Below are positions 21,401 to 54,040 of a DNA stretch of 64,000 nucleotides, piece after piece. Position numbers and translations under genes: made by a program. How positions within the stretch are numbered: the first letter of the stretch is position 1; each line of letters starts with the position of its first letter. A model generated the notes under the pieces. That model was not told the origin of the DNA, made no database searches, and was given only the letters and a program-made list of their open reading frames with translations. This DNA comes from Natronosalvus halobius (GTDB taxonomy: Archaea; Halobacteriota; Halobacteria; Halobacteriales; Natrialbaceae): positions 744,001 to 808,000 of the forward strand of contig NZ_CP099997.1 of NCBI RefSeq assembly GCF_024138145.1. Direction: 5' to 3'.

Positions 21401-22128
21401 GCTACGTACTCCTGCGTCGACAGGGGAACGACATCGAGAGCGACTTCGTCTCGACGATCGAGCACTACGAGGGCGAGCGCGCCGTCGACAACGTCGAGAA
21501 GGTAGCCGTCGACGGCGGCGAGGGTCACGCCGTCAGAGTCGATCTGACGAACGGGCGCACCGACTACGTCGTCTGTTCGTTCGAGGAGACCGACACGCTG
21601 ACGATCGACGACACCTTCGAATTCAAGGGATTCTTCGGGCTCTACTCGATCGAAGACGGCGAACCCGAGTACGCCTACGTCCAGGACGGCACGCGGCTCA
21701 AGGCCCTCGACGAGCCCGCGCTCGTCCAGGAATCGGTCGGTCGCGTGCAGGGCATCGTCGAGGACTTCACCCGCGAGATATCTCTCGAGAACGAGTTGAC
21801 GATCCGTGTCGGCGGTAACGGAAGCCACCTCGAGCGACACGCCGGCTTCGTCTACGTCGACAACGATGACTCCGATCCGTGGCGAGGCGAACCGGACCCG
21901 ACGAACCCCATCGAAGGCCGCGGCCAGCGCGGCCAGGGTAACGGCGCCTACCCGATCGAAGGACTCGGGGGCAGCAACGGGAATCTGGTGACGCTCGATA
22001 CCGGTCGCCAGACGTTTACCCGGGACTTCGTCGATCCCGACCAGCTCGAGGACACCGGCTACAACTACATCATCGACGACAACGACGACGTTCGGATTCC
22101 GTTGACGTCGACCTGGTCGGCAGAGTAA
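18403..22128 (+). CDS. Tat-secreted heparinase II/III-type polysaccharide lyase with inserted beta-sandwich (copy 1)
   Basis: Predicted extracellular lyase that cleaves uronate-containing polysaccharide by beta-elimination, 1241 residues. Twin-arginine signal SRRSML at 31-36 with processing expected near GAAES (about 57). Residues about 60-600 form the alpha/alpha toroid. The heparinase II/III beta-sheet domain then begins (AVLRDGENY), is interrupted by an approximately 95-residue module with CBM-like features (about 635-732, GEWWTFEFD through YLTLIGED), and resumes with FWMYYGRTG (752-760), HNHGDAL (768-774) and SHNTVTVD (from 809), the usual catalytic Tyr and His region. A close paralogue lies at 31125-34898. 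The exact PL family and polymer cannot be fixed by eye; heparin-like, alginate-like or other glycuronans are possible. Confidence 0.8.
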   Translation: MSYDKHYRDRSEWSRPELDAVSDRSSDFDVSRRSMLATTGAGILGALFSSTGTVGAAESDALNAKTRTTIWTDEMRANAQRNIKRYDWAASQRDTAVAEADARLEQLGPDLESLWSLVTAQGIPRGGGLVNQREILGGYHDSGDDRLWKMQTEVDNPHGDGKLTVPTNDFGAYRESGLNDRGMFDPDLADDSLLVNEEHPEMGEGWGVDDGWGWVDENDDLGGGTGTRWNFVAYYNHWHIWRPGGILGLIRRLTDAYLYTGDQKYSRAGAVLLDRIADVYPEMDLTEYTFTLDGFWNSHGGRQTGKVVGAFWESNLMRPIVRSYDAFFPGMEGDDELIAFLDARTDEYPGLEDKDSIEKIRKNIEDGIHREILPANKNSNMIVESGGGSALVQAARTLDEPDGYTREAIEWVFQPGDEYFDGDVWNEEPENWFTTGGNILTPLVDRADRDGYFDIEAPHYNRIPHSSVRQVADYLRGYDAFDGADLYQHPKLQQSLLQNTHLLLIDEFTPQLGDAHGPSAVEWSQTSVEEGFKLTGEPIFAQLWHYQNGYSTAGINGSIFDTEPENLSDDVQGIIDAEGPLDLPSQNLAGYGFAVLRDGENYLNQSFGTTYDTSELFADASTEVNDSFDEAIQFQCYEPGEWWTFEFDADEAGEYDLDIEALFVGSYGIYDLYLNGEQVDTVDFYSPSFTRDTITYTVDLEAGTNELRFECVGKNDESSNYLMALYYLTLIGEDEREDWENAAELGNAKRAFWMYYGRTGIDAGGSTHNHGDALNLGVAAHRLELSPDLGYPERTGNWPKHDFTKGTISHNTVTVDRSRQEQRWVATPRHFEAEDERVNLIDVDAYRAYEQCDEYRRTTAMITVDEEHSYAVDFFRVAGGDDHVFSFHGQVGEATAEGLDLVPQDGGTYAGEDIRKPDYGEETDYTREVGSGFNYLTNVERDTDPGSSVAVDWDVEDYWNHRDDDADGVHLRLTSFGDFDEVALADGHPPDRSGNPDSLRYVLLRRQGNDIESDFVSTIEHYEGERAVDNVEKVAVDGGEGHAVRVDLTNGRTDYVVCSFEETDTLTIDDTFEFKGFFGLYSIEDGEPEYAYVQDGTRLKALDEPALVQESVGRVQGIVEDFTREISLENELTIRVGGNGSHLERHAGFVYVDNDDSDPWRGEPDPTNPIEGRGQRGQGNGAYPIEGLGGSNGNLVTLDTGRQTFTRDFVDPDQLEDTGYNYIIDDNDDVRIPLTSTWSAE

Positions 22129-30925: not shown

Positions 30926-31093
30926 GCTCACCCAATTCGCGGCCCGTGTCCTAAATCCACCGCTCGAGGTGGCTCCCTGGCGTACTGAACTGCGATCGGC
31001 GAGTCCGTTGATTTCGTCGTCGAGCCGATAAGTTCACCGAATTCGCGTCTACGTTTTCGTAATCACGGAGAAATGTATGCTCGACACGAAAAT

Positions 31094-31100
31094 CTATTTA
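31094..31100 (+). promoter_or_regulatory. TATA box for second lyase gene
   Basis: CTATTTA centred about 28 bases before the ATG at 31125 supports that codon as leaderless start of the second lyase. Confidence 0.6.
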
Positions 31101-31124
31101 TCCTGTGAGTGGGAGTGTTATTTG

Positions 31125-34100
31125 ATGCCACAGCGCAAGCAACGCGAGCGCGGCGATAGTCGTACGGAAGACGACCAGCACTGGCGGGTCGGCGACCTGA
31201 GTGTGGTTCGTGACTTCTCGACGAATCCAAACCTTTCGCGGCGATCCGTGCTGGCCGCGACCGGCGCGGGACTGCTCGCCGGGATGTCCACGACGGGCGG
31301 CGCCGCCGCGGCGGAAGACGACGAGCGATACCACCTCAAAACGCGACCAACGATGTGGACCGAGGTGATGCGGGCGAACGCACAGCGAAACATCGACCGC
31401 TACGACTGGGCGGCGGGCCAGCGCGACAACGCCGTCGAGTCGGCCGACAGCTACCTCGAGAAGTACGGCCCCGACCTCGATAGTTTCTGGAACCTCGTTA
31501 CGTCCCAGCAGGTCCCTCGCGGTGGCGGACTCTCGAACGAGCGACACATTCTCGGCGGCGACAGCGACCCCGGCACCGACCGCCTCTGGAAGATAGAGAC
31601 GAACGTCGACGACCCCCACGGCGACGGGACGTTGACGGTGCCGACGAACGACTTCGGCGCCTACCGCGAGAGCGGCCTGAACGACCGGGGAATGTTCGAC
31701 CCCGATCTCGCCGACGACTCGTTGCTGGTCAACGAGGAACACCCCGAGATGGGCGAGGGCTGGGGCGTCGACGACGGCTGGGGATGGATCGACGAGAACG
31801 ACGACCTCGGGATGGGCGAGGGCAATCGGTGGAACTTCGTCGCCTACTACAACCACTGGTTCGTCTGGCGCCCCGGCGGAATTCGTCGGATTCTTGACGC
31901 GCTGGTCGACGCCTATCTGCTCACTGAGGAATCGGAGTACGCGGTCGCGGGACTGGTACTCATGGATCGGATCGCGGACGTCTACCCCGAGATGACGATC
32001 GCGGACTACCAGCAGAACGCACACGGCTTCTGGAACAGCCACGGCGGCCGTCAGACCGGGCGCATCATCGGTTCACACTGGGAGGGGAACCTCGCCCGGA
32101 ACCTGTTGGTCGCCTACGACGCGTTCTTCCCCGCGCTCGACGATCCAGCGGTCGCGGACGAAGTCGTGAGCTTCCTGGACGGGAAGACCGACGAGTACCC
32201 CGGACTGGACGACAAGGATGCGGTCGCGCGCATCCGGGAAAACATCGAGGAGAACTACGTCAAGGAGATCTTTCCGGCCGCGAAGGCCTCCCAGATCGCG
32301 CCTGCACGCGGTCAATTGTCGGCACTCGCGATTTCGGCCCGGGTGCTCGACGATACGCGCGAGAACGGCTATACGCGTGAGGCCATCGAGTGGATCTTCC
32401 AGCCCGGGAACGAGTACTTCGACGGCGACGTCTGGAACGAAGAACCCGAGAACTGGTACACGACGGGTGGAAACGTGCTCGCCCCGATCGTCGACCAGTG
32501 TGACCGCGACGGCTACTGGCACGAGGGCTCACTCGGCTACAACCGGATCCAGATGTCCTCGATCCTGCAGGTCGCCCAGAACTTACAGGGGTACGACGGG
32601 TTCGACGGCGCGGACCTCTACCAGCATCCGAAGTTCCAGAGCGCGCTCAAGATCAACTCTGACCTCCTCCTCCTGGACGAGTTTTCACCAGCGCTCGGGG
32701 ACACCCACCACCCGGCAGGTAACGAGATGAGCCAGAGTGGCATCTCAGACGGCTACGAGGTGACGGACGATTCCCGCTTTGCGCAGCTGTGGCACTACTC
32801 GAACGGCTACTCGACGGCCGGAATCAGGGGTTCCATCTACGATGCCGATCCCGAGGGACTCGCCGAGGAGATCCAGTCGATCGTCGACGCCGAGGGGCCA
32901 CTCGACCTGCCGAGCCAGAACCTCGCTGGCTTTGGCTTCGCGGCGCTCCGGGATGGTGAGAACTACACGACCGAATCCTTCGGGGTGACCTACGACACAT
33001 CCGACCTGTTCGCCGAGGCCTCCGCGCCGATCAACGACAGCTTCGATGAGGCGATTCAGTTCGAAGCCAGCCAGGCGGGCGAGTGGTGGACCTTCGAGTT
33101 CGACGTCGCAGACGCCGACGAGTACGAACTCGAGCTCGAGACGCTGTTCGTGAGTACCTACGGTATCTACGACCTGTCCGTCAACGGCGAGTACGTCGAC
33201 ACCATCGACTTCATGGCCGACGGCGGCGGTCGAGACACTATCTCGTACTTGCTCGAATTACCCGCGGGAACCAATACGATGCGCTTCGAGTGTGTCGGCC
33301 AGAACGACGACTCGGGCGGGTACAAGATGGCGTTGTACTACCTGACGTTGCTCGATGAGGCGGATCGAGAGCGCCGAGACGCGGCCGAACTGGGGAATGC
33401 GAAGCGCGCGTTCTGGATGTATTACGGCCGCAACGGAATCGGCGGCGGTGGAACCCCCCACGCCCACCGCGACACGCTACAGATCGGCGTCGCGGCCCAC
33501 GAGATGGAACTCTCGCGCGACCTCGGCTACCCCGAGAATACTGGCTCCCACCCGCCCCGGCAGTTCTTCACGGACAACACGATCAGCCACAACACGGTCG
33601 TGGTCAACGAGCGCGGCCAGGATCACCACTGGGTCGGCACCCCTCGACACTTCGAGGGTGAGGACGAGCGGGTGAACCTGATCGACGTCGAGGCGCCCCA
33701 CGTCTACGAGGAAGCCGACGAGTACCGACGAACGACCGCGTCGATCACCGTCGACGAGGAACACTCCTACGCCGTGGACTTCTTCCGCGTCACCGGCGGC
33801 GACGACCACCGCTACGGCTTCCACACGACGAAAGCCGACCTCGCCACCGAGGGTCTCGACCTCGAGGCCCAGGACGGCGGGACGTTAGCCGGCGAGGGCG
33901 TGCCGTACGCCGACTCGGCGTACGACGGGGCGCGGTCGCCGGACTCGCGGGGGTCCGGGCTCAACTACTTCGACCAGGTCGAGCGCGACGACGACCCCGC
34001 GAGCCGGGTCGTCCTGGACTGGGACGTCGAGGACCACTTCAACCAGCGCGACGACGACGCCGACGGTGTCCACCTCCGACTCACGTCGTTCGGTGACTTC

Positions 34101-34898
34101 GACGACGTCGAACTGGCCAACGGCTATCCACCGAACAGCTCCGGCGGCGCCGCGCCAGAGGACAGCCTCAGATACGCCTTCCTCAACCGGCGTGGATCGA
34201 ACCTCGAGACGACGTACACCTCCGTAATCGAACACTACGACGGCGACCGGGTCGTCGAGTCGATCGAGGAAGTTCCGGTCTCGGGCGGGCCGGGCCACGC
34301 CGTCAAGATCGACCTCGTAAACGGGCGCACCGACTACGCCGTCTGTTCGTTCGAGAAAACCGACACGCTGACTGTCGACGACACGTTCGAGTTCAAGGGC
34401 TTCTTCGGCCTTTACTCGGTCGAAGACGGCGAACCCGAGTACGCCTACGTCCAGGACGGGACGCGGCTCGAGCCTCTCGACGACTCGCCGTTGATCCAGG
34501 AGGCCGAGGGGTTCGTCCGGGGCTCCGTCGAGGACTTCACCCGGGAGATGAGTCTCGAGAACGAGCTCACGATCCGAATTGCCGCCGATACGGGCCTCCT
34601 CGAGCGCCACACCGGGTTCGTCTACGTCGACAACGACCAGCGCGACCCCTGGCGGGGCGAACCCGACCCGGAGAACCCGATCCTCGGTCGTGACCAGCGT
34701 GGCCGAGGGAACGGTTCCTACCCGATTGAGGCCCTGGAGGACGGGCGCGGAAACCTGATGACGGTCGACGTCGGCGAGAAGACCTTCACCCGTGATTTCG
34801 TCGACCCAGACCAGCTCGAGGACGGCGGGTACAACTACATTATCGAGGAAGGCGACGACGTTCGGATTCCGCTGACGTCGGTGTGGTCGCGGGAGTAG
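31125..34898 (+). CDS. Tat-secreted heparinase II/III-type polysaccharide lyase with inserted beta-sandwich (copy 2)
   Basis: Paralogue of the lyase at 18403-22128 with the same organisation over 1257 residues: twin-arginine signal (SRRSVLAATGAG, about 41-52), alpha/alpha toroid, start of the beta-sheet domain (AALRDGENY), inserted CBM-like module (GEWWTFEFDVADADEYELEL region through YLTLLDEAD), then FWMYYGRNG, HAHRDTL (His779, His781) and SHNTVVVN. The catalytic-loop residues differ between copies (HAHRD here, HNHGD in copy 1), so substrate or linkage preference may differ. Compared with copy 1 the protein is similar along its whole length, with a nearly identical nucleotide tract at 31638-31702. 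Downstream are two tandem repeat arrays. Extracellular endo- or exolyase is inferred; polymer unknown. Confidence 0.8.
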   Translation: MPQRKQRERGDSRTEDDQHWRVGDLSVVRDFSTNPNLSRRSVLAATGAGLLAGMSTTGGAAAAEDDERYHLKTRPTMWTEVMRANAQRNIDRYDWAAGQRDNAVESADSYLEKYGPDLDSFWNLVTSQQVPRGGGLSNERHILGGDSDPGTDRLWKIETNVDDPHGDGTLTVPTNDFGAYRESGLNDRGMFDPDLADDSLLVNEEHPEMGEGWGVDDGWGWIDENDDLGMGEGNRWNFVAYYNHWFVWRPGGIRRILDALVDAYLLTEESEYAVAGLVLMDRIADVYPEMTIADYQQNAHGFWNSHGGRQTGRIIGSHWEGNLARNLLVAYDAFFPALDDPAVADEVVSFLDGKTDEYPGLDDKDAVARIRENIEENYVKEIFPAAKASQIAPARGQLSALAISARVLDDTRENGYTREAIEWIFQPGNEYFDGDVWNEEPENWYTTGGNVLAPIVDQCDRDGYWHEGSLGYNRIQMSSILQVAQNLQGYDGFDGADLYQHPKFQSALKINSDLLLLDEFSPALGDTHHPAGNEMSQSGISDGYEVTDDSRFAQLWHYSNGYSTAGIRGSIYDADPEGLAEEIQSIVDAEGPLDLPSQNLAGFGFAALRDGENYTTESFGVTYDTSDLFAEASAPINDSFDEAIQFEASQAGEWWTFEFDVADADEYELELETLFVSTYGIYDLSVNGEYVDTIDFMADGGGRDTISYLLELPAGTNTMRFECVGQNDDSGGYKMALYYLTLLDEADRERRDAAELGNAKRAFWMYYGRNGIGGGGTPHAHRDTLQIGVAAHEMELSRDLGYPENTGSHPPRQFFTDNTISHNTVVVNERGQDHHWVGTPRHFEGEDERVNLIDVEAPHVYEEADEYRRTTASITVDEEHSYAVDFFRVTGGDDHRYGFHTTKADLATEGLDLEAQDGGTLAGEGVPYADSAYDGARSPDSRGSGLNYFDQVERDDDPASRVVLDWDVEDHFNQRDDDADGVHLRLTSFGDFDDVELANGYPPNSSGGAAPEDSLRYAFLNRRGSNLETTYTSVIEHYDGDRVVESIEEVPVSGGPGHAVKIDLVNGRTDYAVCSFEKTDTLTVDDTFEFKGFFGLYSVEDGEPEYAYVQDGTRLEPLDDSPLIQEAEGFVRGSVEDFTREMSLENELTIRIAADTGLLERHTGFVYVDNDQRDPWRGEPDPENPILGRDQRGRGNGSYPIEALEDGRGNLMTVDVGEKTFTRDFVDPDQLEDGGYNYIIEEGDDVRIPLTSVWSRE

Positions 34899-40267: not shown

Positions 40268-41351
40268 TTCGTTGCCTCCAGGTCGTCGTCAGTTCGTTCG
40301 AACGCGCGAGCGACGCGGTGACGGCCCTCCTTCCTGTTGCACCGGGTCGTTCGCCACCGGTGGCGGTCGGCGGTCGTCGGCACCGCTGTCTGCCTGCCGA
40401 CGGTGCTCGATTCGAACGGTCCGGTGACGTGTCGGGTTCGGTGACCGACAGCGATCACGTCAGGCTCACCTGCGGGGGATCCGATTCGCATAGCTGCATC
40501 GTTACCAATCGGTTCATGGTGGCAAGTTGTAATGTACGTTGTGGTGAGAGGGGTGGCACGTACCAATACTCGGGTGCTTTCGATGTCCCAAAATCGAACA
40601 TCCATTCACCACAAGCGGCGGGCGGGGTTGATCGCGCTAGTACTATACTCGAGCGAGGGCGGCCGGAGACACCGTCACGTCCGGACAGCGAACGTGTGGA
40701 AATCCAGATGGCGTTCACTACACCTAAACGGCCATTCACACTCGAGAGCGAACATCCTTACTGCCTTCTTCCGTCATTATATCGGGAATGACTGCCACAG
40801 AGAGCCATAACGTGACTCTCATACGCTTGTAACACTTTGTGACAGCATCTCACCCCTTCGTTTTGCGATGTAAAACAGCAGGTCGGACAATCTTCGAAAG
40901 GTCCGTCCCGATACGGTACTCGTTCGTCAGCGTCGTCAACTTCGCCAGTTCTGCTGCGAATCCGATGCACCCGTCGACGCTGCTTGTCGACGCTGTCCCC
41001 GTCGACGGCCACCTCGAGGCAAATTCGAGCCGACTCGGACCGTTTCAGGTGCCACGACGTGGTATCGCTCGCTCAGAGACGCGCGGTCCCAGGCGACCGG
41101 ACGTTGCCGTGTGGCCGGTCCAGGAGCGCAGGATGCGGCCGTCGTCTCGGACGGGACGAGGAAAGGTGTGTTTAGCGGTCGAAAACGACTCGACGAGAAC
41201 CGATGTCGGTGGCCGGTGACCGACGTCGATGGCCAGTGACGGACGACCGGTGGACGGTGACAGACGTCGATGGCCAGTGACGGACGACCGGTGGGCGGTA
41301 ACCGGCGACCGGTGGCTTGATACACAGACGCTCCCTGGTTTCGAGCGACCA
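40268..41351. other. 1.08-kb gap between divergent operons, no supported gene
   Basis: The third dehydrogenase (minus) and the GATase1-like gene (plus) face away from this stretch. Short frames inside it are Arg/Ser-rich or Cys-rich and look non-coding. There is AT-richer sequence around 40770-40870 that could hold promoters. An imperfect tandem repeat lies at 41218-41299. It may contain an untranslated RNA or a degenerate gene, but nothing is recognisable. Confidence 0.5.
41218..41299. repeat. 41-base tandem repeat, two copies
   Basis: Two copies (41218-41258 and 41259-41299) share GACGTCGATGGCCAGTGACG followed by GACGACCGGTGG, with only a few differences; related fragments (CGACCGGTGGC) continue to about 41315. 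It lies just upstream of the GATase1-like gene. Confidence 0.75.
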
Positions 41352-42548: not shown

Positions 42549-42667
42549 CAGTCGCTCAAGTCTGGCCCCCGAATTGAGCGCTCTCCGAAAGTCGGTAACT
42601 GGTGCTCGAGTGCTCCGACGCTTCGAGCACCTCGAGCGCTTCGGGCACGAAACGCCGCCACATCCAT

Positions 42668-44059
42668 ATGGGATCGGACCGAACCGAGAACCGATCTTCG
42701 ATGCCACGGGACGCACACGATACGTCTTCGAGCGGCTACGAGTGGCGGGCCGGCACCGCTACCCGCGTCATTACGCCCGAGAAACCGATGTGGATGGCGG
42801 GCTTCGCGAAGCGCGAAGACCCCGCCACGGGCGTCGAACACGACCTCGAGGCGACGGCACTGGCGCTCGAGGACGAGTCGGGAACGCTCGCGGCCATCGT
42901 CTCCGCAGACGTGTTGTTCATCCCGAGAGCGATCCGAGACGCCGTCACGCAGCGCTGTGAGGCGAATTTCGGTATCGATCCCGATTCTATCGTACTTGCG
43001 GCGACGCACACCCACTGCGGACCGGAATTCCGGGATTTCAAGGTGCGAATGTACGCCGACGACGTCGAGCGGTATCGAACGAACGCGGATGAGTATCGCG
43101 AACGACTCGAGGACGAACTTGTCACCGTAATCGGCGAGGCACTCGACGGCCGAGCGCCGGTGCGTCTCAGCTACAGTCACGCCCGGTGTGGGTTCGCGAT
43201 GAATCGACGACTGCCGGTCGAGGACGGGATCGCCCACGAGCAAAACCCCGACGGGCCGGTCGATCACGAGGTTCCGGTTCTCGTCGTCGAACCCGACGAA
43301 GGGGGCAATCGAACCGACGGAATGGCGCCTTCGGCCATCGTGTTCGGCTACGCGTGCCACACGACGACTCTCTCGTTCACGGAGTACTGCGGCGACTGGG
43401 CCGGGTTCGCCCGCCAGTACCTCGAGGAGCGCTATTCAGGGGTCACCGCCCTCTGTCTCCTGGGCTGTGCCGGCGACCAGAATCCGTATCCACGCGGTGA
43501 CGTCGACCTGGCGAAACACCACGGATGCACGATGGCCACGACCGTCCGGGCGGCGATCGAATCCCGAAGACGGCCGATTCGAGGACCGCTCAGGACCGGC
43601 TTCGAGGACTGTGCACTCAAGTTCGAGAACCCACCGAGCAGGGACGAACTCGAGGCGATGCGGAAAGGCGACGTGCGACACCTGCGTGTCCGCGCGGAGG
43701 CGCTCCTCGACGAACTCGACGAGACCGGCACGATTCGAACGGAACACCCGTATCCGATACAGGCGTTCGGCTTCGGCGACGACCTCACGCTGGTGGCTCT
43801 CGGCGGCGAAGTTCTCGTCGAGTACGGGATTCAACTGAAGGATCGCCTCGAGGGACCGGTCTGGGTGGCCGGGTACGCGAACGACGAGTTCACGTACGTG
43901 CCAACGGCCAGAGTGAGAGCCGAGGGTGGCTACGAGAGCGAGGGAGCGATCCGCCGGTCGGCGTTTTCGGGGCCACTCGATTCGAACGCCGAGGAACGGA
44001 TCCTACAGCACGCGCAGGCGCTCGGCGAGCGGGTACGCAGCTCGAGGACAATACAATAG
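42668..44059 (+). CDS. Neutral ceramidase-like hydrolase (alkaline non-lysosomal family)
   Basis: Resembles the zinc-dependent neutral/alkaline ceramidase superfamily (PF04734), which hydrolyses amide bonds. A possible zinc site is in AATHTHCGPEF (His114 and His116 from this start) and in GYACHTTTLSF, followed by GDWAGFARQYLE. The domain begins at WRAGTATRVITPEKPMWMAGF. Archaea have no sphingolipids, so a different N-acyl substrate is likely, perhaps an N-acyl amino sugar; that is inferred. There is no signal peptide, so cytosolic. Start choice is uncertain: ATG at 42668 or 42701. The gene lies 91 bases before the CE15 fusion. Relatives in haloarchaea are uncharacterised. Confidence 0.78.
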   Translation: MGSDRTENRSSMPRDAHDTSSSGYEWRAGTATRVITPEKPMWMAGFAKREDPATGVEHDLEATALALEDESGTLAAIVSADVLFIPRAIRDAVTQRCEANFGIDPDSIVLAATHTHCGPEFRDFKVRMYADDVERYRTNADEYRERLEDELVTVIGEALDGRAPVRLSYSHARCGFAMNRRLPVEDGIAHEQNPDGPVDHEVPVLVVEPDEGGNRTDGMAPSAIVFGYACHTTTLSFTEYCGDWAGFARQYLEERYSGVTALCLLGCAGDQNPYPRGDVDLAKHHGCTMATTVRAAIESRRRPIRGPLRTGFEDCALKFENPPSRDELEAMRKGDVRHLRVRAEALLDELDETGTIRTEHPYPIQAFGFGDDLTLVALGGEVLVEYGIQLKDRLEGPVWVAGYANDEFTYVPTARVRAEGGYESEGAIRRSAFSGPLDSNAEERILQHAQALGERVRSSRTIQ

Positions 44060-44149: not shown

Positions 44150-46570
44150 ATGCCCGCAGACACACCTGCCGACGACTATCCACTCCACCCCGAACGGATC
44201 CACGGACAGCCATCGTCTGCCCAGGAGAGACAGCGACGACGGGACTCCCTCGAGGAACTGCGCCCCCTGCTCGCGCCCGAGGCCGACGAGTACGGCTCCG
44301 ATCCACGCCTCTCTCACCGGGACGACAGCTGGCTCGCGTGGCAGGAACGAACGGGCGAACTTCCGCCCGACTTCGAGCGGTTGCCGGCACTCGCCGAGCT
44401 TCCCGACCCCCTCGTTCAGTACGGTCCTGGAGCGGAACGTCGCGCCGAGATCACGACCAGCGAGGAGTGGGAACAGCAGCGAGATCGATACAGGAACCAG
44501 CTCGAGTACTGGCTTTACGGACGGATGCCCCCCGCGCCGGGAAACGTTCGGGCGAGCGAACTCGACTCTCGGACCGTGGAGGGAGCGACGATACGCGACG
44601 TCCGACTCGAATTCGGCCCGGGCCACGACCTGACGCTCGACCTCGAACTCATGGTTCCGGACGGGACAGGGCCGTTTCCGGTGTTCATGACCCAGTGGAA
44701 CCACCGCAAGTGGGCGCTGCTGGCCCTCCAGCGGGGCTACGCGGCCGTCGTCTACGCGGCGGCTGACGCCCGGGACGACGCGGCCGACTACGGCGAGTAC
44801 TACCCCGACTACGACTTCCAGTTGCTCGCCAGGCGAGCGTGGGCCGCCCATCGCGTCGTCGACTACCTCGAGACGGTACCCGAGGCGGACGACGATCGGA
44901 TCGCGATCACGGGTGCGTCGCGAAACGGCAAGCAGTCGCTGATCGCCGCGGCGTTCGACGAACGAATCGACGCGGTCGCCCCCTGTAGCGCCGGGAGCGG
45001 CGCCGTCGTTCCAGCACGATTCGATCGGGACGACTGTTACGCCGGGGACATGTCGGTCCACGCGCGCCTTCGGCGCAGCTGGTTTCACCCGCGCTGGCGC
45101 TTCTTCGTGGGCCGGGAGAATCGCCTCCCTGTCGACGCCAACCACCTCGTCTCGCTCGTCGCGCCGCGCCCTTGTCTGCTCCACACGGCGCTGAACGAGC
45201 GGACGACGAGCGCGTGGGCCGTCGCGCAGGTGTACCAATCTGCCAACTCAGTCTACGACCTCCTGGACGCCGGCGACCGACTCGCCCTGCAGTATCGCCA
45301 GGGTCGTCACGCCAGGACCACGCGAGATCTTCACCAGATCCTGGACTTCTTCGACGACACGTTCGGACTCGGCGAGTACGACGACCCGGCGCGGCTCTAC
45401 CACGACTTTTCGTTCGAGGAGTGGCGTCGGACGGCGGTCGATGACGTCGACGTTGCCGAATTCCCCGAACGCGGACTCGAGGACCCCCTGATAGACGACG
45501 ATGGTAACCGAGCCGAGACGGTCGAGGCGTGGGTCGATCGAAAACCCATTCTTCGAGAGCGACTCCGCTGGAGTCTCGGCGAGCGACCGCCGCGCGCGTC
45601 GGACCCGCCTACGTCCTCGCTCGAGGAGGCGGGTCGAGGCGGGAAACCGGACTACCTCGCGGACGTCATCGGCCGACCCGACCCGCCGGATGGCGTCGAG
45701 AAACAGTGGCTGTCACCGTCGCGTACCTACGGCGAACGCGTCGAGGGCGACCTCTACTATCCGCAGTCGACCGATAGTGACCGCCCGGACGAACAGTTGC
45801 CCGCGATCGTCTGGCTGCATCCCTACGCCTACAACACCGGGTACGGAGCGGACGGGCGCGGGCAGGTCCCGGTCGAGGGAGCCACCGACCGCGGGTTCGC
45901 GCTGTACGCGTACGACCAGCTCGGCTTCGGCACACGGATCGAGGAGGGCGAGCACTTCTACGAGCGTCACCCGAACTGGTCGAAGATGGGCAAACTGGTC
46001 GACGACGCGCTGGCGGCCGTCGAGACGCTCTCGGCGCTCGAGTGCATCGACGACGACCGAATCTTCGTCCTGGGGTACTCGCTCGGGGCCACCGTCGGCC
46101 TGTACGCGGCAGCCCTCGACGAGCGCATCGCCGGCGTCGCCTCGGTCAGTGGGTTCGCGCCGTTCCGGACGAGCGATTCCGAAACCGAACGCGCCAACGC
46201 GGTGATTGGACGGCTGTCTCACATGCACGGGCTGCAACCCCGCCTCGGGCTGTTTCGGGACGACCCCGAGCGCGTCCCGTTCGACTTCCACGAGGTGCTC
46301 GGACTGATCGCACCCCGACCGACGCTCGCGGTGGCCCCGTCGCTCGACTGGACCCACCCCCAGGCGGACGTCCTTCGATGCGTCTCCGAAGCCCGGTCCG
46401 TCTACGACCTCTACGGGGTGCCCGAGGCGCTCCAGATTCGAGCACCGGACGACCTATTGAGCTTCGATTACCACGAAGCCCGTCTCGGCGACGGACCGGA
46501 GGAGTCGCCCGAGGCGTTCTCTACGGACCGACGAGACGCCGTCTTCGACTGGATCACCGACCAGGCCTGA
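44150..46570 (+). CDS. Fusion of glucuronoyl-esterase-like (CE15) and acetyl-esterase-like domains
   Basis: An 806-residue cytosolic protein with two alpha/beta-hydrolase domains. The first (about 60-440) has TGASRNGKQ with Ser257, the GxSRxGK motif of CE15 glucuronoyl esterases, followed by FDERIDAVAPCSAGSGA and a His region RQGRHARTTRDLHQI. The second (about 500-800) has GYSLG with Ser644, Asp733 in SLDWTHPQ and His775 in DYHEARLG, like acetyl-xylan-esterase or dienelactone-hydrolase-type enzymes. CE15 removes methyl or aryl esters of glucuronate; the second domain may remove acetyl groups. Together they would strip ester groups from imported uronate sugars. Such a fusion is not familiar to me. 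It lies between the ceramidase-like and CapA-like genes. Confidence 0.82.
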   Translation: MPADTPADDYPLHPERIHGQPSSAQERQRRRDSLEELRPLLAPEADEYGSDPRLSHRDDSWLAWQERTGELPPDFERLPALAELPDPLVQYGPGAERRAEITTSEEWEQQRDRYRNQLEYWLYGRMPPAPGNVRASELDSRTVEGATIRDVRLEFGPGHDLTLDLELMVPDGTGPFPVFMTQWNHRKWALLALQRGYAAVVYAAADARDDAADYGEYYPDYDFQLLARRAWAAHRVVDYLETVPEADDDRIAITGASRNGKQSLIAAAFDERIDAVAPCSAGSGAVVPARFDRDDCYAGDMSVHARLRRSWFHPRWRFFVGRENRLPVDANHLVSLVAPRPCLLHTALNERTTSAWAVAQVYQSANSVYDLLDAGDRLALQYRQGRHARTTRDLHQILDFFDDTFGLGEYDDPARLYHDFSFEEWRRTAVDDVDVAEFPERGLEDPLIDDDGNRAETVEAWVDRKPILRERLRWSLGERPPRASDPPTSSLEEAGRGGKPDYLADVIGRPDPPDGVEKQWLSPSRTYGERVEGDLYYPQSTDSDRPDEQLPAIVWLHPYAYNTGYGADGRGQVPVEGATDRGFALYAYDQLGFGTRIEEGEHFYERHPNWSKMGKLVDDALAAVETLSALECIDDDRIFVLGYSLGATVGLYAAALDERIAGVASVSGFAPFRTSDSETERANAVIGRLSHMHGLQPRLGLFRDDPERVPFDFHEVLGLIAPRPTLAVAPSLDWTHPQADVLRCVSEARSVYDLYGVPEALQIRAPDDLLSFDYHEARLGDGPEESPEAFSTDRRDAVFDWITDQA

Positions 46571-46697
46571 GCTTCCCGCGCTCGAGCAAAGGTATATGGT
46601 CGAGCCGAAAAAACCGGTGGGCCGATGGACGTCCGATCGCTCGAGAGCTGGTTCCGAATCGATCCCGAAACCGCTGGCCAGGGAAGCGAGGAAGCCG

Positions 46698-48047
46698 ATG
46701 AGTGACGAAGCCTCGAGTGGCACGAGTGACGACCGCTCGAAGGACTCGAGTGTCGAAGGCTCGACCGTCGTGAGCGACGACCTCGCCACGGTAGTCGACC
46801 TCGGAACGGGTCGCGACCGACGGGGTGGTGACCTCTGGTCGATGGTCGTCGCCGGCGACTGCGCGCTCAATCGAGACGCCAGGCCGACCGCCGAACGAAC
46901 GGTGTCGTCGCCCCTTCGAGAACGGATCGGCGTGGCCGACGTCTCGATCCTCAACGTCGAAGCCCCCATCGTCTCAGATGAGGCGACGCCGATCGACAAG
47001 AGCGGGCCGTGCGTCGAGAACCCGGACGGGACGGCCGAGACAGTGGCGGACGTCGGTTTCGACGTCTGCACGCTCGCGAACAACCACGTCCGCGACTACG
47101 GACCCGAGGGCGTCGTGACGACACTCGAGGCGCTTCACGACGCAAACCTCGCGACCGTGGGCGTTGGCTCGACGCCCGATGAAGCGTATGAACCGCTCGC
47201 GGTCGGGCCCGACGAGTCGGTCGCGATCGTCAACGTCTGCGAACGGGAGTTCAACCTCGTCGACGAACGGGGCCACGGAGCGGCGTGGTTCTCCGATCGT
47301 CGCGCTCGAGAGGCCATCCGGGCGGCCGATCGGGAGTACGACAGCGTGATCGTCGTCGCCCACAGCGGCGTGGAGTACGTCCCGTTCCCGGCTCCTCAAC
47401 TCCAGGGACTCCTGCGGGAGTTCGTCGACATCGGGGCCGACCTCGTCGTCGGGCACCACCCGCACGTCCCTCAGGGCTGGGAACGGTACGGCGACGGCAC
47501 GATCTTCTACAGCCTCGGTAACTTCCTGTTCGACAGCATGGCCGACGAGGAGAACACCTCCTGGGGACTCGTCCTGGAGGTCGAATTCGACGGAGCGACG
47601 CCGGTCGCCGTCGAAATCGTGCCGACCGAAACCGTCGACGGGGTCGTCCACCCGCTCGGGCTTACTCGAGATTGCGAGGACTACCTGTCGTACCTCAACC
47701 GGCTCGCCGAGATCACCACAGACGCGGCGACGCTCGAGGCCTACTGGCAAGAAATTGCCGTTCAGGTATTCTACGAGCGGTACTCCAACTGGCTCCACAC
47801 CGGCGTCGGGGCGAACCTCTCGCGTGCGCGCTCGGCGCCGAACGACCTGCGACTGCAGCGATCGATCTGGGATCCCGAAACCCGACGGGCGGAACTCTTC
47901 GTCCTGTTGAACGTCATCCGGGCGGAGTCCCACCGGTGGCTCACGACCACGGCGCTTGAGGTGCTCTCCGGCGAAGGTATCGACAGGCGGACCCCGGAGA
48001 TCCGCGACGAAGCGCAGCGATTGCTGGCTCGAACCGCCCGCGAGTGA
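46698..48047 (+). CDS. CapA-family metallophosphatase-fold protein
   Basis: A protein of the CapA/PgsA superfamily, which has the calcineurin-like metallophosphoesterase fold. Motifs seen: VVAGDCALNRDA, NVEAPIV, ANNHVRDYGPEG, VVAHSGVEY and GHHPHVPQGWERYGDGTIFYSLGNF. CapA is named for its role in poly-gamma-glutamate export in Bacillus, but no CapB or CapC is present here, and the superfamily is also used for unknown phosphoesterases. No signal peptide or membrane anchor is visible. Start uncertain: ATG at 46596 would add a basic N-terminal stretch unlike haloarchaeal proteins, so I prefer 46698. It is the last gene of the forward operon. Confidence 0.8.
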   Translation: MSDEASSGTSDDRSKDSSVEGSTVVSDDLATVVDLGTGRDRRGGDLWSMVVAGDCALNRDARPTAERTVSSPLRERIGVADVSILNVEAPIVSDEATPIDKSGPCVENPDGTAETVADVGFDVCTLANNHVRDYGPEGVVTTLEALHDANLATVGVGSTPDEAYEPLAVGPDESVAIVNVCEREFNLVDERGHGAAWFSDRRAREAIRAADREYDSVIVVAHSGVEYVPFPAPQLQGLLREFVDIGADLVVGHHPHVPQGWERYGDGTIFYSLGNFLFDSMADEENTSWGLVLEVEFDGATPVAVEIVPTETVDGVVHPLGLTRDCEDYLSYLNRLAEITTDAATLEAYWQEIAVQVFYERYSNWLHTGVGANLSRARSAPNDLRLQRSIWDPETRRAELFVLLNVIRAESHRWLTTTALEVLSGEGIDRRTPEIRDEAQRLLARTARE

Positions 48048-48886: not shown

Positions 48887-51800
48887 TCAGTCGTCGGTAG
48901 CGACCGGCCGTCCAATTCCTGAGAGCGTCGAACCCCCGCGGTCGTCCGCGTGTGACTCCACGGTCCGATCAGCGGTCGTATCGTCACCTTCCTCGTCGAG
49001 GAACTCGCCCTGGATCAGCGTCTGGACGGCCCGCTCGGCCGCGAGATCCGTCGCTTCCGCCACGAGGTCGGCGTGCGCCGACGGCGCCTCGGCGGCCGTC
49101 GCCTCCGCCGTCGTCGAGAACTCCTCGAGTACGTCGTCCAGGTCGGCGTCCAGGTCGACGGTCGCGAGCCGTTCCGTGACGAAGGCGGCTACCCGCTCGA
49201 CGGCAGTCTCCTCGTCGCCGGGGGCCTCGAGGACGCTCTCGAGCGTCCGATCCATCCCACGGGCATCAGTCGAGGGGCCGGGATTTGCGTGAATCTGCGG
49301 GTCGAGACCGAGACCTTCGTAGAGTTCCGTCATCGTCGGGTCGTACGCCGTGATCCCGGCGTCCAGCCAGTGGTCGTCCGTCGCCTCGACCAGGTAGCCG
49401 GTGAAGGCTGTCTTCTGGCCGTTGCCGATTTGCCCACCGGGTGCGTGCAGCGAGTCGTCGATCGAGTCGACGACGTCCATCTCAAAGACGTCTCCCTCGT
49501 CGCCATACGTCGGCGCGGCGACGAAATTCCAGCCCTCCTGGAGGTGGGATTTCCCGAGGTCGGAATCGCGGTGACCCGGCGGCGTCCCGTCCGGTCCGAC
49601 CGGCGGGTCGTCCGCCCGCTGGAAGTGGACCTCGGCGCGTACACCTTCTGCCGGCGTCACCCTGAACGCGTAGAGCGTGTCGGCGTACTGCAGGTTCCCG
49701 TCGCCGGTGACCGACTTCCACTTGCCGGCGTCGTGGTTCCACATCTCGATTTCGCCGGCGAACTCGCCGTACCCGTCGACGCCGAGGACGTCGTAGATTG
49801 TCTGATCGGTCGGCCCCGGGAAGCCGACAGCGTACGAGCCACCCGGATCGAGGGACAGGTCTGTCGCGATTTCCGTCGGTTCGAGTGCGTCGACGGCGAG
49901 GGCTCCTGCATCCGCGTCCACGTCTGTGGACTCGAGTTCCACCGGCGGAACGGTCAGGTAGGGATCGTACGCGACGTCGCCATCTACGATCGTATCGCCG
50001 TAACTTCGGTCGCCGAGGTAGTTCTCGCGACAGTCGAACGGTCCTTCGGGTGCGTTCCACCCGTCGCCGGGCTCGCCGCGGAACGGCAGGTTGGTGGCAG
50101 AGAGGTCGTTGTACCGCGCCAGGACTGCGTCGGCGTCGAGGCCGAAGTAGCCGGGTCCGAGGTCGAGACCGGTCGCTGCCTCGACGTCGTTGAACGCGAA
50201 CAGGGCCGTGTCGCCGAACTGCCGGAAGCCGATTCCAGCGTTTTCGATGGTGTTCCGTTCGATGCTGACTGCTGGCGGATCGATGCCGAACCCGTACTGG
50301 GCAACGCGAATCCCCGTGTGGGAGTCGACGACGTGATTGTCCTCAACCGCGACGTCGACGCCGTCGACGTAGATGCCGTTGTTCCGGTCGTCCGAGTAGG
50401 GTTCCTCGTCGGGGCCGACGATCGTGTTGTTCGCGATACGGCAGTCCTCGCCGCCGTCGAAGGGACCAAAGAGCGCCACACCGGCCCGATCGCCGTCCTC
50501 GTGCTCGAGGTGACAGTCAGTGACGGTGACGCGGGTCGCGCCGTTAACGATGACGCCGCCCTGGAAGGAGTAGTCGGGGCTGTCGGTCACGGTGACGTTC
50601 CGGATCGTTGCGCCGTTGACGGTGCCGAAGAACCCGGAGTCGGTGCCGACGCCGACGACCGTCCCGAACGCGGTGACGTCCTCGACGAGCGCATCGGCCG
50701 TCTCGCGGAGCTGGACGCCGAACGTCCCGGCCGCGGTGACGTTCCTGATGGTCACGTTGCTGGTGCCATCACCGGCGAGCACGCCGGTTCCGATGGCGTT
50801 CTTCGAATCGACCTCCCCGTCGATCACGTTCGCCTCGACGTTCTCGAGCGTAACGTCGTCGGCGCCGATGTGGATAATCCGCGGCCCTGGCAGGTCCCGT
50901 TCGTGGACAATCGAGGGCGTCGCACCGCCGACGCCCCGGATCGTGATTCCGGGGGTGCCGACGTACAGACCGGTCTGGAAGCCGCGGTCCGGTGCGTCGA
51001 CCTCGTAGACGCCGTCGGCGAGTTCGACGGTGTCGCCCTCGCGAACGAAGTCCACCGCCGCCTGCAGGTCGTCGACCTGCTCCGGGACGCGCAGCGGCGA
51101 CTCGTAGACGGTCGTCGGTCTGAACGTCGCCGCCGTCTCGATCGTCTGACCACGCTCGCCGAGCGTGACGAATCGGGTACTGATCGCGAACTCGCCGATC
51201 CGTTGGGACGTGTCGACCGTTATCTCGACCGTCCCGTCGTAGGCGTCGTACTCGAGCGTGTCGTCGAAGGCGACGCTCTCTCCATCGATCGAGAGCGAGA
51301 GGTCACCCTCGTCCAGGAACTGCAATCCAGTAACGCCGACTTCCAGTTCCTCGAGGTTCTCGACGGCGACCTCGAGGGTAACCGACTCGCCGGGAGCCAC
51401 CCGTTCGGCCGGCGCGGTGACGACGTCGATCGGCGGCGTCGTGGCGGCGTGAGCGACGAGATTGCCCAGGAGCGATTGTCCAGCGTCGGTGACGGCGTCT
51501 CGGTCGACGAACGTCCCGAGGCCGAGCGACGACGCGTGGACGACTCGAGAGAGGTCGTCGATTGCGAGGCCATCGCCCGTCTCGGTGGACGCGACGGCCG
51601 TCGAGGCGACCGTCGAGCCGGCGACGCCACCACTGTACCCCTCGAAGTAGCTGTGGAACCCGCTGTAGTACACGCCGATTCCGACCGAGACCGGATCGGG
51701 TTCGGTGATGGTGACGCTCTCGCCTTCGGCGGCGATTCCCTCGAACACGGGGTGTGCTGCCGAAATGTCGTACTCGATCGGATACGCGATCGGATACGGC

Positions 51801-54040
51801 ACCTGGGCGGCGACCTCGTTCGTCTCGCGCGGGTCGCCGATCGCATCGGACACCTGGGAGACGGCATCGCTCGCGTCGCCGAACTGGTCGAGGTACACCG
51901 TACCGATTTCGGGCGCCGAAGCCACGTTGACAAAGTCGGCGACGAGGTTCGCGTCGTCGCCTAAGTTTTGCACGACGTACCCCTCGTGTTCGCGACTCTC
52001 GGCTGCGTCCAGGGCGGCCGCTGGCTCGAGGCGGTCGAACTGGTACCGAGGGTGCATCGCCTCGGCGAGAATCGTCTCGATGTCGGCCGCGTAGCCGCTC
52101 CCGGCGTCGACGATGCCGATCGGAACAGGCTCGTCGTAGACGAACGTCGGCCCCGTCGAGACGGTGACGGAGTCGCCGAGCCCCGAGAAGGTGTACTCGA
52201 GTTCGAGGTTGCCGACGCCGTCGGATTCGGTCCCGACGGTGATCGTTATTTCGTCCGAGCGGGCGGATTCGAAGTCGACGCGTTCGCCGAACGTGGTCTC
52301 CTCACCGTCGACCTCGAGCCAGGCCTGGCCGACGTAGTCTCCGACCTGTTCGACGGTGACCGATTCGACGTGAGCGACGTTCGCGGTCACGTCGAACGAC
52401 TCGCCGGCCTCGAGGCCCTCGGGTTGGCCGTCGACGACGGCGATGGCGAGGCTGTCGCCGAGCGTGAAATCGACCGAGTGAAAGCCGTCGTCGACCTCGA
52501 CGGTGACGGTGTCGGCGGTGTAGCCGAACGCGTTGGCAGTTAGCTCGTACGTACCGGGAATTGCCCGGACCTGGAACTCCCCGTCGGCGTTCGTCTCGAC
52601 CGGGAAGCCGTCGAGTGTGACGGTTGCGTCGTCGATGGGGGCGCCGTCGGAGTCGGTGACGGTCCCGGTGACACCGCTATCGGCGGCGACGCGACCGACG
52701 GAAGCGAAGGCGTCGACGATTCCGCGTCCGTACCGAATATCGGGGTCGTCCGACTCGCCCTCGGGTTTCCAGGCAGTGGCGGCGAGGGCGCGTTTCACCC
52801 GCTCCGGCGTGGCTTCCTCGAGGGCTGCCGATCTGATGAGACCGACGACGCCCGCGACGTGGGGCGACGCCATCGACGTCCCGGAGATGGCGTGATACGG
52901 CCCGTTCGAGTGGTCGATCGGGAACGCGCTGGTTACGTCCACGCCCGGCGCCGACACGTCCGGGACGACGTAGCTATCGGGCCAGTCGTCGGGCGCGAGG
53001 TGCCCCCAGTCGTTCGCCGTCGAGATCGTTTCACCGCTCGAGAATTCGGCGATGGCCTCGTCTTCGTCTGAGGCCCCGATTGCGAAGGCGTCGTAGACGT
53101 TGGCGGGCGACCCGGACGTTCCGACCCTGCTGTTGCCCGACGAAGAGACGACGACCGTACCAGCCTGGTCTGCGTTCCGGACCGGTTCGATCATCTCGCC
53201 CACGTAGCCGTCGATCCCGAGGCTCATGTTGATCGCGTCGGCGTCTTCCTCGACCGCCCACTGCATACCGCCGATGATCTGCGCGAACGACCCGCCCCCA
53301 TCCGGGAGGACGAGTCCACCGAGCAACGTCGCGTCCGGGGCGACGCCGATTGCGGTGCCGGAATCGTCGCCACCCGCGACCGTCCCGCTCACGTGCGTGC
53401 CGTGATAGTGTGAATCGTGGGGCTCCGAGTCGACCTGCTCGCCGTCGCCGTCGAACTCGGCGAAGTTGTCGGACTCGAGGTCGATGTCCGGGTGGGTCGG
53501 GTCGACGCCGGTGTCGAGCACCGCGATTCGGGCGCCCTCGCCGCGCGAGTCGTACGCGTCCCACGCCCCGGGCGCGTCGATCTGCTCGAGGCCGTACGTG
53601 ACGTTACCCGTTTCCTCACTAACGGTTCCGACGTCCGGTTCTGGGATCTCGTAGCGGAAGTTGGGGTGGACCTCCGAGACGCCCTCCTGGGCGGTCACCT
53701 GCTCGAGGTCGACGACGCTGGTATCGACCTCGAGGAGGAGCGCGTTCGCGAGCCAGAAGCGTTTCTTCACCGCGAGGCCGTCCGTTTCGTCGACGTACTC
53801 GACGATGGGGGCCTGGCTCTTTTGGGCCGTCGCCTTGAGTTCGTCGACGACGGAATCGGATGCGACGAGTGGAACGTCCACGTCCTCGGCGCGGACGACG
53901 ACTTCAGTCGTCTCGTCGACAGTACCACTCGCCGTCGGGAAGAGTGCGAGTAGACCGGCACCCGCCGTTCCCTGGAGAACTTGCCGCCTCGAAACGACGG
54001 ATGGCGATTCGTCTGCTCCTTTGGGGGGATGCTCTGTCAT
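48887..54040 (-). CDS. Giant Tat-exported subtilase fused to a parallel beta-helix region
   Basis: A 1717-residue secreted protein. Twin-arginine signal SRRQVL at 17-22. Propeptide-like region about 45-135. Subtilisin-type S8 protease with the triad Asp176 (VLDTGVD), His213 (HYHGTHVSG) and Ser389 (GTSMASPH), plus oxyanion Asn303. A carboxypeptidase-regulatory-type beta domain follows (about 457-530). The middle carries several all-beta segments. From about 1070 to 1400 there is a NosD/pectin-lyase-like right-handed beta-helix (repeated NVTIRNVT, DCHLEHED and ERNTIENAGIG patterns). The last 300 residues are an acidic C-terminal domain. The protein probably matures outside the cell and its helix region may hold a glycan or cell surface. 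Haloarchaeal halolysins are about 400-500 residues; this length is unusual. Confidence 0.9.
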   Translation of the reverse strand: MTEHPPKGADESPSVVSRRQVLQGTAGAGLLALFPTASGTVDETTEVVVRAEDVDVPLVASDSVVDELKATAQKSQAPIVEYVDETDGLAVKKRFWLANALLLEVDTSVVDLEQVTAQEGVSEVHPNFRYEIPEPDVGTVSEETGNVTYGLEQIDAPGAWDAYDSRGEGARIAVLDTGVDPTHPDIDLESDNFAEFDGDGEQVDSEPHDSHYHGTHVSGTVAGGDDSGTAIGVAPDATLLGGLVLPDGGGSFAQIIGGMQWAVEEDADAINMSLGIDGYVGEMIEPVRNADQAGTVVVSSSGNSRVGTSGSPANVYDAFAIGASDEDEAIAEFSSGETISTANDWGHLAPDDWPDSYVVPDVSAPGVDVTSAFPIDHSNGPYHAISGTSMASPHVAGVVGLIRSAALEEATPERVKRALAATAWKPEGESDDPDIRYGRGIVDAFASVGRVAADSGVTGTVTDSDGAPIDDATVTLDGFPVETNADGEFQVRAIPGTYELTANAFGYTADTVTVEVDDGFHSVDFTLGDSLAIAVVDGQPEGLEAGESFDVTANVAHVESVTVEQVGDYVGQAWLEVDGEETTFGERVDFESARSDEITITVGTESDGVGNLELEYTFSGLGDSVTVSTGPTFVYDEPVPIGIVDAGSGYAADIETILAEAMHPRYQFDRLEPAAALDAAESREHEGYVVQNLGDDANLVADFVNVASAPEIGTVYLDQFGDASDAVSQVSDAIGDPRETNEVAAQVPYPIAYPIEYDISAAHPVFEGIAAEGESVTITEPDPVSVGIGVYYSGFHSYFEGYSGGVAGSTVASTAVASTETGDGLAIDDLSRVVHASSLGLGTFVDRDAVTDAGQSLLGNLVAHAATTPPIDVVTAPAERVAPGESVTLEVAVENLEELEVGVTGLQFLDEGDLSLSIDGESVAFDDTLEYDAYDGTVEITVDTSQRIGEFAISTRFVTLGERGQTIETAATFRPTTVYESPLRVPEQVDDLQAAVDFVREGDTVELADGVYEVDAPDRGFQTGLYVGTPGITIRGVGGATPSIVHERDLPGPRIIHIGADDVTLENVEANVIDGEVDSKNAIGTGVLAGDGTSNVTIRNVTAAGTFGVQLRETADALVEDVTAFGTVVGVGTDSGFFGTVNGATIRNVTVTDSPDYSFQGGVIVNGATRVTVTDCHLEHEDGDRAGVALFGPFDGGEDCRIANNTIVGPDEEPYSDDRNNGIYVDGVDVAVEDNHVVDSHTGIRVAQYGFGIDPPAVSIERNTIENAGIGFRQFGDTALFAFNDVEAATGLDLGPGYFGLDADAVLARYNDLSATNLPFRGEPGDGWNAPEGPFDCRENYLGDRSYGDTIVDGDVAYDPYLTVPPVELESTDVDADAGALAVDALEPTEIATDLSLDPGGSYAVGFPGPTDQTIYDVLGVDGYGEFAGEIEMWNHDAGKWKSVTGDGNLQYADTLYAFRVTPAEGVRAEVHFQRADDPPVGPDGTPPGHRDSDLGKSHLQEGWNFVAAPTYGDEGDVFEMDVVDSIDDSLHAPGGQIGNGQKTAFTGYLVEATDDHWLDAGITAYDPTMTELYEGLGLDPQIHANPGPSTDARGMDRTLESVLEAPGDEETAVERVAAFVTERLATVDLDADLDDVLEEFSTTAEATAAEAPSAHADLVAEATDLAAERAVQTLIQGEFLDEEGDDTTADRTVESHADDRGGSTLSGIGRPVATDD

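Follow-up and report, generated by a model that had tools for sequence, protein, structure and literature searches.

A tandem CE15-fold protein of Natronosalvus halobius: a probable CE15-type serine esterase with a degenerate CE15-fold partner in one chain

Results

A single chain with two CE15-fold halves

In the haloarchaeon Natronosalvus halobius, one open frame encodes a protein of 806 residues that consists of a CE15-type domain and a second, degenerate domain of the same fold. We regard it as probable that this protein is a CE15-type serine esterase whose chain also contains, as a fixed partner, a degenerate domain of the CE15 fold, and that it is cytosolic in this organism. The gene lies in a window of 64,000 nucleotides (contig NZ_CP099997.1, positions 744,001 to 808,000), by which we mean the whole stretch of DNA that was analyzed. 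The chain and its first half have the following features:

44150-46570, forward strand: tandem CE15-fold protein, 806 aa, without an export signal (one open frame; full-length relatives exist)
44387-45409, forward strand: first half (about residues 80-420), CE15-type, predicted to be catalytic (PF22244, PDB sequence search, fold)
44918-44920, forward strand: Ser257, predicted nucleophile in GASRNGK, followed by Arg258 and Lys261 (conserved columns)
45197-45199, forward strand: Glu350, predicted catalytic acid at the position of OtCE15A Asp356 and MZ0003 Asp332 (alignment)
45308-45310, forward strand: His387, predicted catalytic histidine, equivalent to OtCE15A His408 (conserved column)

A previous sequence-only reading had noted GASRNGK, had singled out Ser257 and Ser644, and had placed the protein in the cytosol. 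The sequence bears out the first points, with Ser257 in GASRNGK and Ser644 in GYSLG in one open frame, and our export-signal check supports a probably cytosolic protein, as neither a hydrophobic nor a Tat-type start was detected with a simple hydropathy rule. Within the genome of 3.85 Mb, the Pfam model GCE_fung (PF22244) matched twice, both times inside this frame, and the sole other similarity elsewhere was a weak match to the second half (E 7e-5). The whole chain was modeled as two domains with a pLDDT of 85 and a pTM of 0.88.

The first half is a CE15-type domain with a predicted catalytic triad

GCE_fung matched the protein with an E value of 8e-46 in Pfam, and a phmmer comparison with CkGE15A (Caldicellulosiruptor kristjansonii CkXyn10C-GE15A, PDB 7nn3) gave 7e-26. 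The same structure headed the fold matches for the first half in the VIA-align comparison (Z 38.8, 321 aligned residues, rmsd 2.2, 27% identity), with OtCE15A of Opitutus terrae (Z 38.4) and the marine metagenome enzyme MZ0003 (Z 35.9) also matching, and ranks 1-32 of the fold list for the protein were CE15 entries. Pfam, structures found by sequence, and the fold thus all confirm the earlier assignment of the first domain to CE15, and the structure prediction that had been suggested as a check places its fold inside this family and not outside.

The CE15 nucleophile motif G-x-S-R-x-G, in which an arginine follows the serine, is present as GASRNGK, and all three columns of the Ser-His-acid triad (S257, H387, and E350), in which CE15 enzymes may have the acid at one of two positions, are filled. 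Conservation was analyzed in 50 full-length rows, which were all longer than 650 aa; L076, L078, and L079 were left out, as were identical or contained copies. S257 and R258 are found in all 50 rows and K261 in 49, a Ser/Arg count that is biased for the 16 rows that were chosen by the pattern G.SR.[GA]. Position 350 is Glu in 39 rows and Asp in 11, and H387 is invariant (50/50). An unfiltered set gave S257, R258, and H387 in 34 of 34 rows and E350 in 33, with Asp in the remaining one, and L067, which lies outside the pattern filter, has S257, R258, E350, and H387 together with Ala644. Of the 34 long rows, 32 entered the fold alignment A1 and 30 entered A2.

In the profile alignment, along which the OtCE15A residue numbers were counted from Ser267, Ser257, Arg258, Lys261, and His387 correspond to OtCE15A Ser267, Arg268, Lys271, and His408, and the acid at the Asp356 position is likewise shared. 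Based on this equivalence, Arg258 would be part of the oxyanion hole, and Lys261 and Trp311 would line the uronate pocket. The fungal-type Glu position is occupied by Ser280, and the acid Glu350 is found at the MZ0003-type position instead. According to the accessible part of its description, MZ0003 also has an acid only at the Asp332 position and none of the fungal type, and this Asp332 has been demonstrated to be required in MZ0003 (PMC5722869). The architectures differ, as MZ0003 is a single domain with three large loops and the protein described here is a tandem, and the first half is about 50 residues shorter between two aligned blocks than either MZ0003 or OtCE15A.

The available text on OtCE15A names Trp358, Glu305, and Lys271 as glucuronate contacts (PMC6937553), and Trp317 is a pocket residue of the same enzyme in the part that we could access of a further study (PMC11096219). 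The Lys271 and Trp317 equivalents are kept in the window protein, whereas OtCE15A Glu290, Glu305, and Trp358 are aligned with Ser280, Gly299, and Thr352. By analogy, the glycine at the Glu305 equivalent may weaken glucuronate binding. None of the 50 rows has a Trp at the Trp358 column, and W356, which is located four residues further on and is a Trp in 39 of 50 rows, might stand in for it.

These exchanges bear on an alternative in which the first half, as an esterase of the CE15 fold, hydrolyzes something other than a uronate ester, such as an acetylated or aryl ester, like promiscuous bacterial members of the family. The absence of two residues that touch glucuronate in OtCE15A would be in line with such an activity, as would the scope of MZ0003, which is described as broader in the accessible part of the report (PMC5722869). 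However, Arg258, Lys261, Trp311, and Glu323 are each kept in 49 to 50 of the 50 rows, with Trp311, the Trp317 equivalent, in all of them, and position 299, which is Gly in the window, is a Glu in 40 of 50 rows. We therefore consider this alternative unlikely.

The second half shares the fold of the first but has a decayed active site

The second half contributes four further features:

45443-46567, forward strand: second half (residues 432-806), degenerate CE15-fold domain (Pfam, fold, self-alignment)
46079-46081, forward strand: Ser644, nucleophile-elbow position in GYSLG (S 26, A 14, T 6, G 2, N 1, and H 1 of 50 rows)
46346-46348, forward strand: Asp733, at the acid position of this half and in the alignment column of Glu350 (D in 47/50 rows)
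46472-46474, forward strand: His775 in the haloarchaeal insert FDYHEARL, a low-confidence loop (6/50 rows; pLDDT under 50)

A BLASTP comparison of the two halves gave 30% identity over 215 residues (E 1e-13), and GCE_fung matched the second half in 30 of 30 members. When modeled alone (pLDDT 84.8), the second half also had OtCE15A as its best fold match (7b7h, Z 31.2, 318 aligned residues, 21% identity). The next fold neighbors were the pectin methylesterase BT1017, which we take to be a CE19 enzyme, and BF1801/BVU_4111, with Z values of 25 versus 31 for CE15, and CE7-type structures reached about 20. The BT1017 structure 6goc gave Z 25.4, which is below the CE15 matches, and the position of its serine is variable among the second halves. 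The Ser-Asp-His triad of BT1017 was confirmed by mutation in the accessible part of that study (PMC7939467), and BT1017 is thus catalytic, unlike most of the second halves here. An AXE1 profile matched the second half alone with E 6.5e-6, and GCE_fung with E 2e-14. The whole-protein fold list had placed 3g8y, 6goc, and 3nuz (Z 26-27) on the second half because the CE15 entries were already spent on the first half. As the second half modeled alone finds CE15 first, an AXE1/CE7 or BT1017-like type is disfavored. The second half had been thought to be a different type of esterase, but one Pfam model recognizes both halves, the two align with each other, and the second half folds as CE15.

The catalytic positions are not maintained. 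Position 644 has changed at least 10 times on the tree, and the relative L036, which is from the same genus and 92% identical, has an alanine at this position and has retained the FDYHEARL insert. Position 645, equivalent to Arg258, is a Leu in the window and an Arg in none of the 50 rows, and position 768, which is aligned with His387, is an Asp in the window and a His in none of the 50 rows. His775 is located seven residues beyond this column. The insert with His775 is present in all six haloarchaeal rows and also in Halomontanus rarus (L082), and it is unplaced in the whole-chain as well as in the second-half model (pLDDT under 50). Ser644, Asp733, and His775 occur together in five of the six haloarchaeal rows, the window protein included, and Ser644 is combined with some His in the last loop in 10 of the 50 rows. 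Among the 44 non-haloarchaeal rows, 20 have the Ser plus the acid, and 5 of these also have a His at columns 768-771; the closest bacterial relative, L051, has kept Ser and Asp and has no His in the last loop. The scaffold is conserved, with D589, R596, and D712 in 50/50 rows and H557 in 49/50.

As nucleophile, oxyanion Arg, and His have decayed while the scaffold is kept and the two-domain model is confident, the second half is most plausibly non-catalytic, that is, a degenerate relative of the first half that would be retained for a structural or glycan-binding role. The more far-reaching idea of a widespread tandem design, in which the pseudo-CE15 half of a CE15 esterase serves to hold the glycan, appears distinctly unlikely to us.

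The decay also bears on the original proposal that one cytosolic chain combines two esterases of different types, both active, which would remove different esters from the same imported oligosaccharide. The Ser-Asp-His triad that it postulated for the second half is present in the window as Ser644, Asp733, and His775, and these residues are correctly ordered after beta-strands in the model; moreover, the insert recurs in the six haloarchaeal rows and L082, and Asp733 is near-constant. The triad as such is not conserved, though, and its His lies in a poorly predicted loop. In addition, the second half shares fold and Pfam family with the first, the nucleophile is not a Ser in 24 of 50 rows, the 92%-identical relative included, and L051 has no His in that loop. 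Two esterases that take off two ester groups are thus very improbable.

Similarly, the second half could have been dead already in bacteria and then re-armed in haloarchaea, with the His of FDYHEARL restoring catalysis and creating a new activity exclusive to this group. The insert indeed marks exactly the haloarchaeal clade among the 50 rows and is missing from the nearest bacterial relative, but L036 has Ala644 despite the insert, and neither model places the loop, so that we strongly doubt a re-arming.

The tandem protein is a widespread and mostly exported bacterial design

A search for related loci resulted in 32 loci that were mostly from Bacteroidota, with some from Balneolota and Planctomycetota and two from haloarchaea. 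Among 100 relatives of the window genome, its own counted, 6 matched; the fusion was present in five of these (the window's own genome, G002, G007 with two copies, G033, and G052), and G072 matched with the first half only. In a class-wide sample, at least 3 of 341 genomes matched (own genome counted, two candidates scored per genome). At a threshold of E 1e-60 and with the seed counted, at least 6 of 345 genomes matched in the phylum sample of L009 (three candidates scored per genome) and at least 9 of 246 in that of L032 (four candidates per genome), some of the latter with the first half only. A 76% copy is encoded on a plasmid of Halomontanus rarus and annotated as 'alpha/beta fold hydrolase'.

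In a 52-row tree, the six haloarchaeal rows formed one clade (SH-aLRT 100) that adjoined two Pirellulaceae pieces. According to the simple hydropathy rule, 42 of the 50 rows have a signal-like start; the eight rows without one are five haloarchaeal rows and three from the planctomycete sample, and the haloarchaeal paralogue L040 has retained a Tat motif. The fusion had been described as archaeal, but full-length relatives, usually with an export signal, exist in Bacteroidota, Balneolota, and Planctomycetota. Together with the tree, their occurrence rules out an archaeal invention. The gene probably reached the haloarchaea in a single event, and its source was then a planctomycete-like lineage or close to one. 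The accessible part of a published tree of the CE15 entries in CAZy already contains archaeal sequences (PMC11096219).

The second halves grouped as one clade, outside the first halves and most single CE15 domains, in a tree of 40 rows. As this tree has long branches and was midpoint-rooted, it does not distinguish an early duplication within the gene from the joining of two separate genes with the CE15 fold.

The surrounding genes point to a glycan with hexosamine and uronic acid

The following neighbors and further genes of the window are relevant:

42602-44059, forward strand: neutral-ceramidase-like neighbor (PF04734, Pfam), true start possibly inside the frame
46596-48047, forward strand: CapA/PGA_cap-like neighbor (Pfam)
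18403-22128 and 31077-34898, forward strand: two large Tat-type proteins with heparinase II/III similarity at the C-terminus (Pfam)

A neutral-ceramidase-like gene was nearby in 7 of 7 haloarchaeal loci examined, the window counted, and in 3 of 29 bacterial loci (L009, L014, and L017 of L004-L033 without L026). CapA-like homologues were found near the CE15 gene in L041, L042, L044, and L082, and Gfo/Idh/MocA genes were, like CapA-like genes, recurrent neighbors. The two heparinase II/III-like proteins matched with E 5e-8, which passes the cut-off, and 1.3e-4, which does not, and in L041 and L042 a homologue with 39-40% identity lies immediately after the CE15 gene. Like these two, a GH20, a sulfatase, a PIG-L deacetylase, SBP_bac_5, and components of ABC transporters are encoded upstream in the window; the protein is thus set in a carbohydrate cluster with an ABC importer, in agreement with the imported oligosaccharide of the earlier reading. 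The same upstream region encodes a GH3 that is closest to beta-N-acetylhexosaminidase, under the NCBIfam cut-off, and a DgaE-like protein that is below its cut-off. SusD families matched 7 and sulfatases 4 of 90 bacterial neighbors (93 minus three paralogous CE15 fusions).

Based on these genes, the glycan likely contains hexosamine and uronic acid. Glucuronoxylan is an unlikely substrate: there was no xylanase among the window proteins scanned, and xylan degradation as the role of the protein is therefore unsupported. Haloarchaea can grow on glycosaminoglycans with an exported PL8 lyase and cytoplasmic glycosidases, as stated in the accessible part of a recent report (PMC13260240), the main text of which contains no occurrence of 'CE15'. 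The cluster could serve such a GAG-lyase route, which it fits in outline; as GH88 is absent from the genome, the route would be incomplete or served by other families.

Three side observations concern these regions. A 1717-aa Tat-type protein at 48887-54040 on the reverse strand joins a subtilase to a right-handed beta-helix region. A short tandem repeat of about 21/41 bases lies at 41207-41316, at the upstream end of a GATase1-like open frame. In L041, an additional open frame (6859-8127, forward strand) separates the ceramidase-like and CE15 genes; by eye we presume that it resembles an IS605-type OrfB transposase.

Discussion

In the mechanism that we propose, exported lyases or hydrolases would cut the glycan outside the cell, and the oligosaccharides would enter via the ABC importer. 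As most haloarchaeal copies have no export signal, the enzyme presumably acts on imported oligosaccharides in the cytosol. There, the first half would cleave a uronic-acid (glucuronoyl-type) ester in a two-step mechanism with Ser257, Glu350, and His387 and with Arg258 in the oxyanion hole, and would thereby free the uronic acid of its ester so that glycosidases could proceed. The second half may hold the chain in place or stabilize the first half.

To our knowledge, CE15 has been studied almost only as a secreted family for plant biomass. The decayed CE15-fold half, the lack of a Trp at the usual xylan-contact site, the probable location in the haloarchaeal cytosol, and the neighboring hexosamine/uronate genes suggest a non-xylan role for this chemistry. 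A uronate methylation step is known in Haloferax, and the esterase would be the degradative counterpart of this step should it act on a methyl-esterified uronic acid in archaeal surface glycans. We thus see the protein as an unusual variant within a known enzyme family, and a two-activity archaeal invention is unlikely.

Other CE15 domains are also joined to further modules. The enzyme that contains CkGE15A has a xylanase domain and five CBMs, and a second CE15-fold half is not mentioned in the accessible part of its description (PMC8280721). The partner is a glycosidase, and no degenerate CE15-fold copy, both in the CE15-GH8 protein of Bacteroides eggerthii (PMC8417218) and in OtCE15C with GH106 (PMC10807430), as far as the available text of these articles goes, and, judging from its chain name, the multidomain esterase 8tse of R. 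flavefaciens joins CE15 to another module. In open PMC text, we found no description of a tandem CE15 design with a pseudo half and no match for a haloarchaeal glucuronoyl esterase or CE15 polysaccharide esterase. Among the bacterial tandem CE15 proteins, L064 and L065 are larger, at about 1200 aa, and contain about 400 additional residues.
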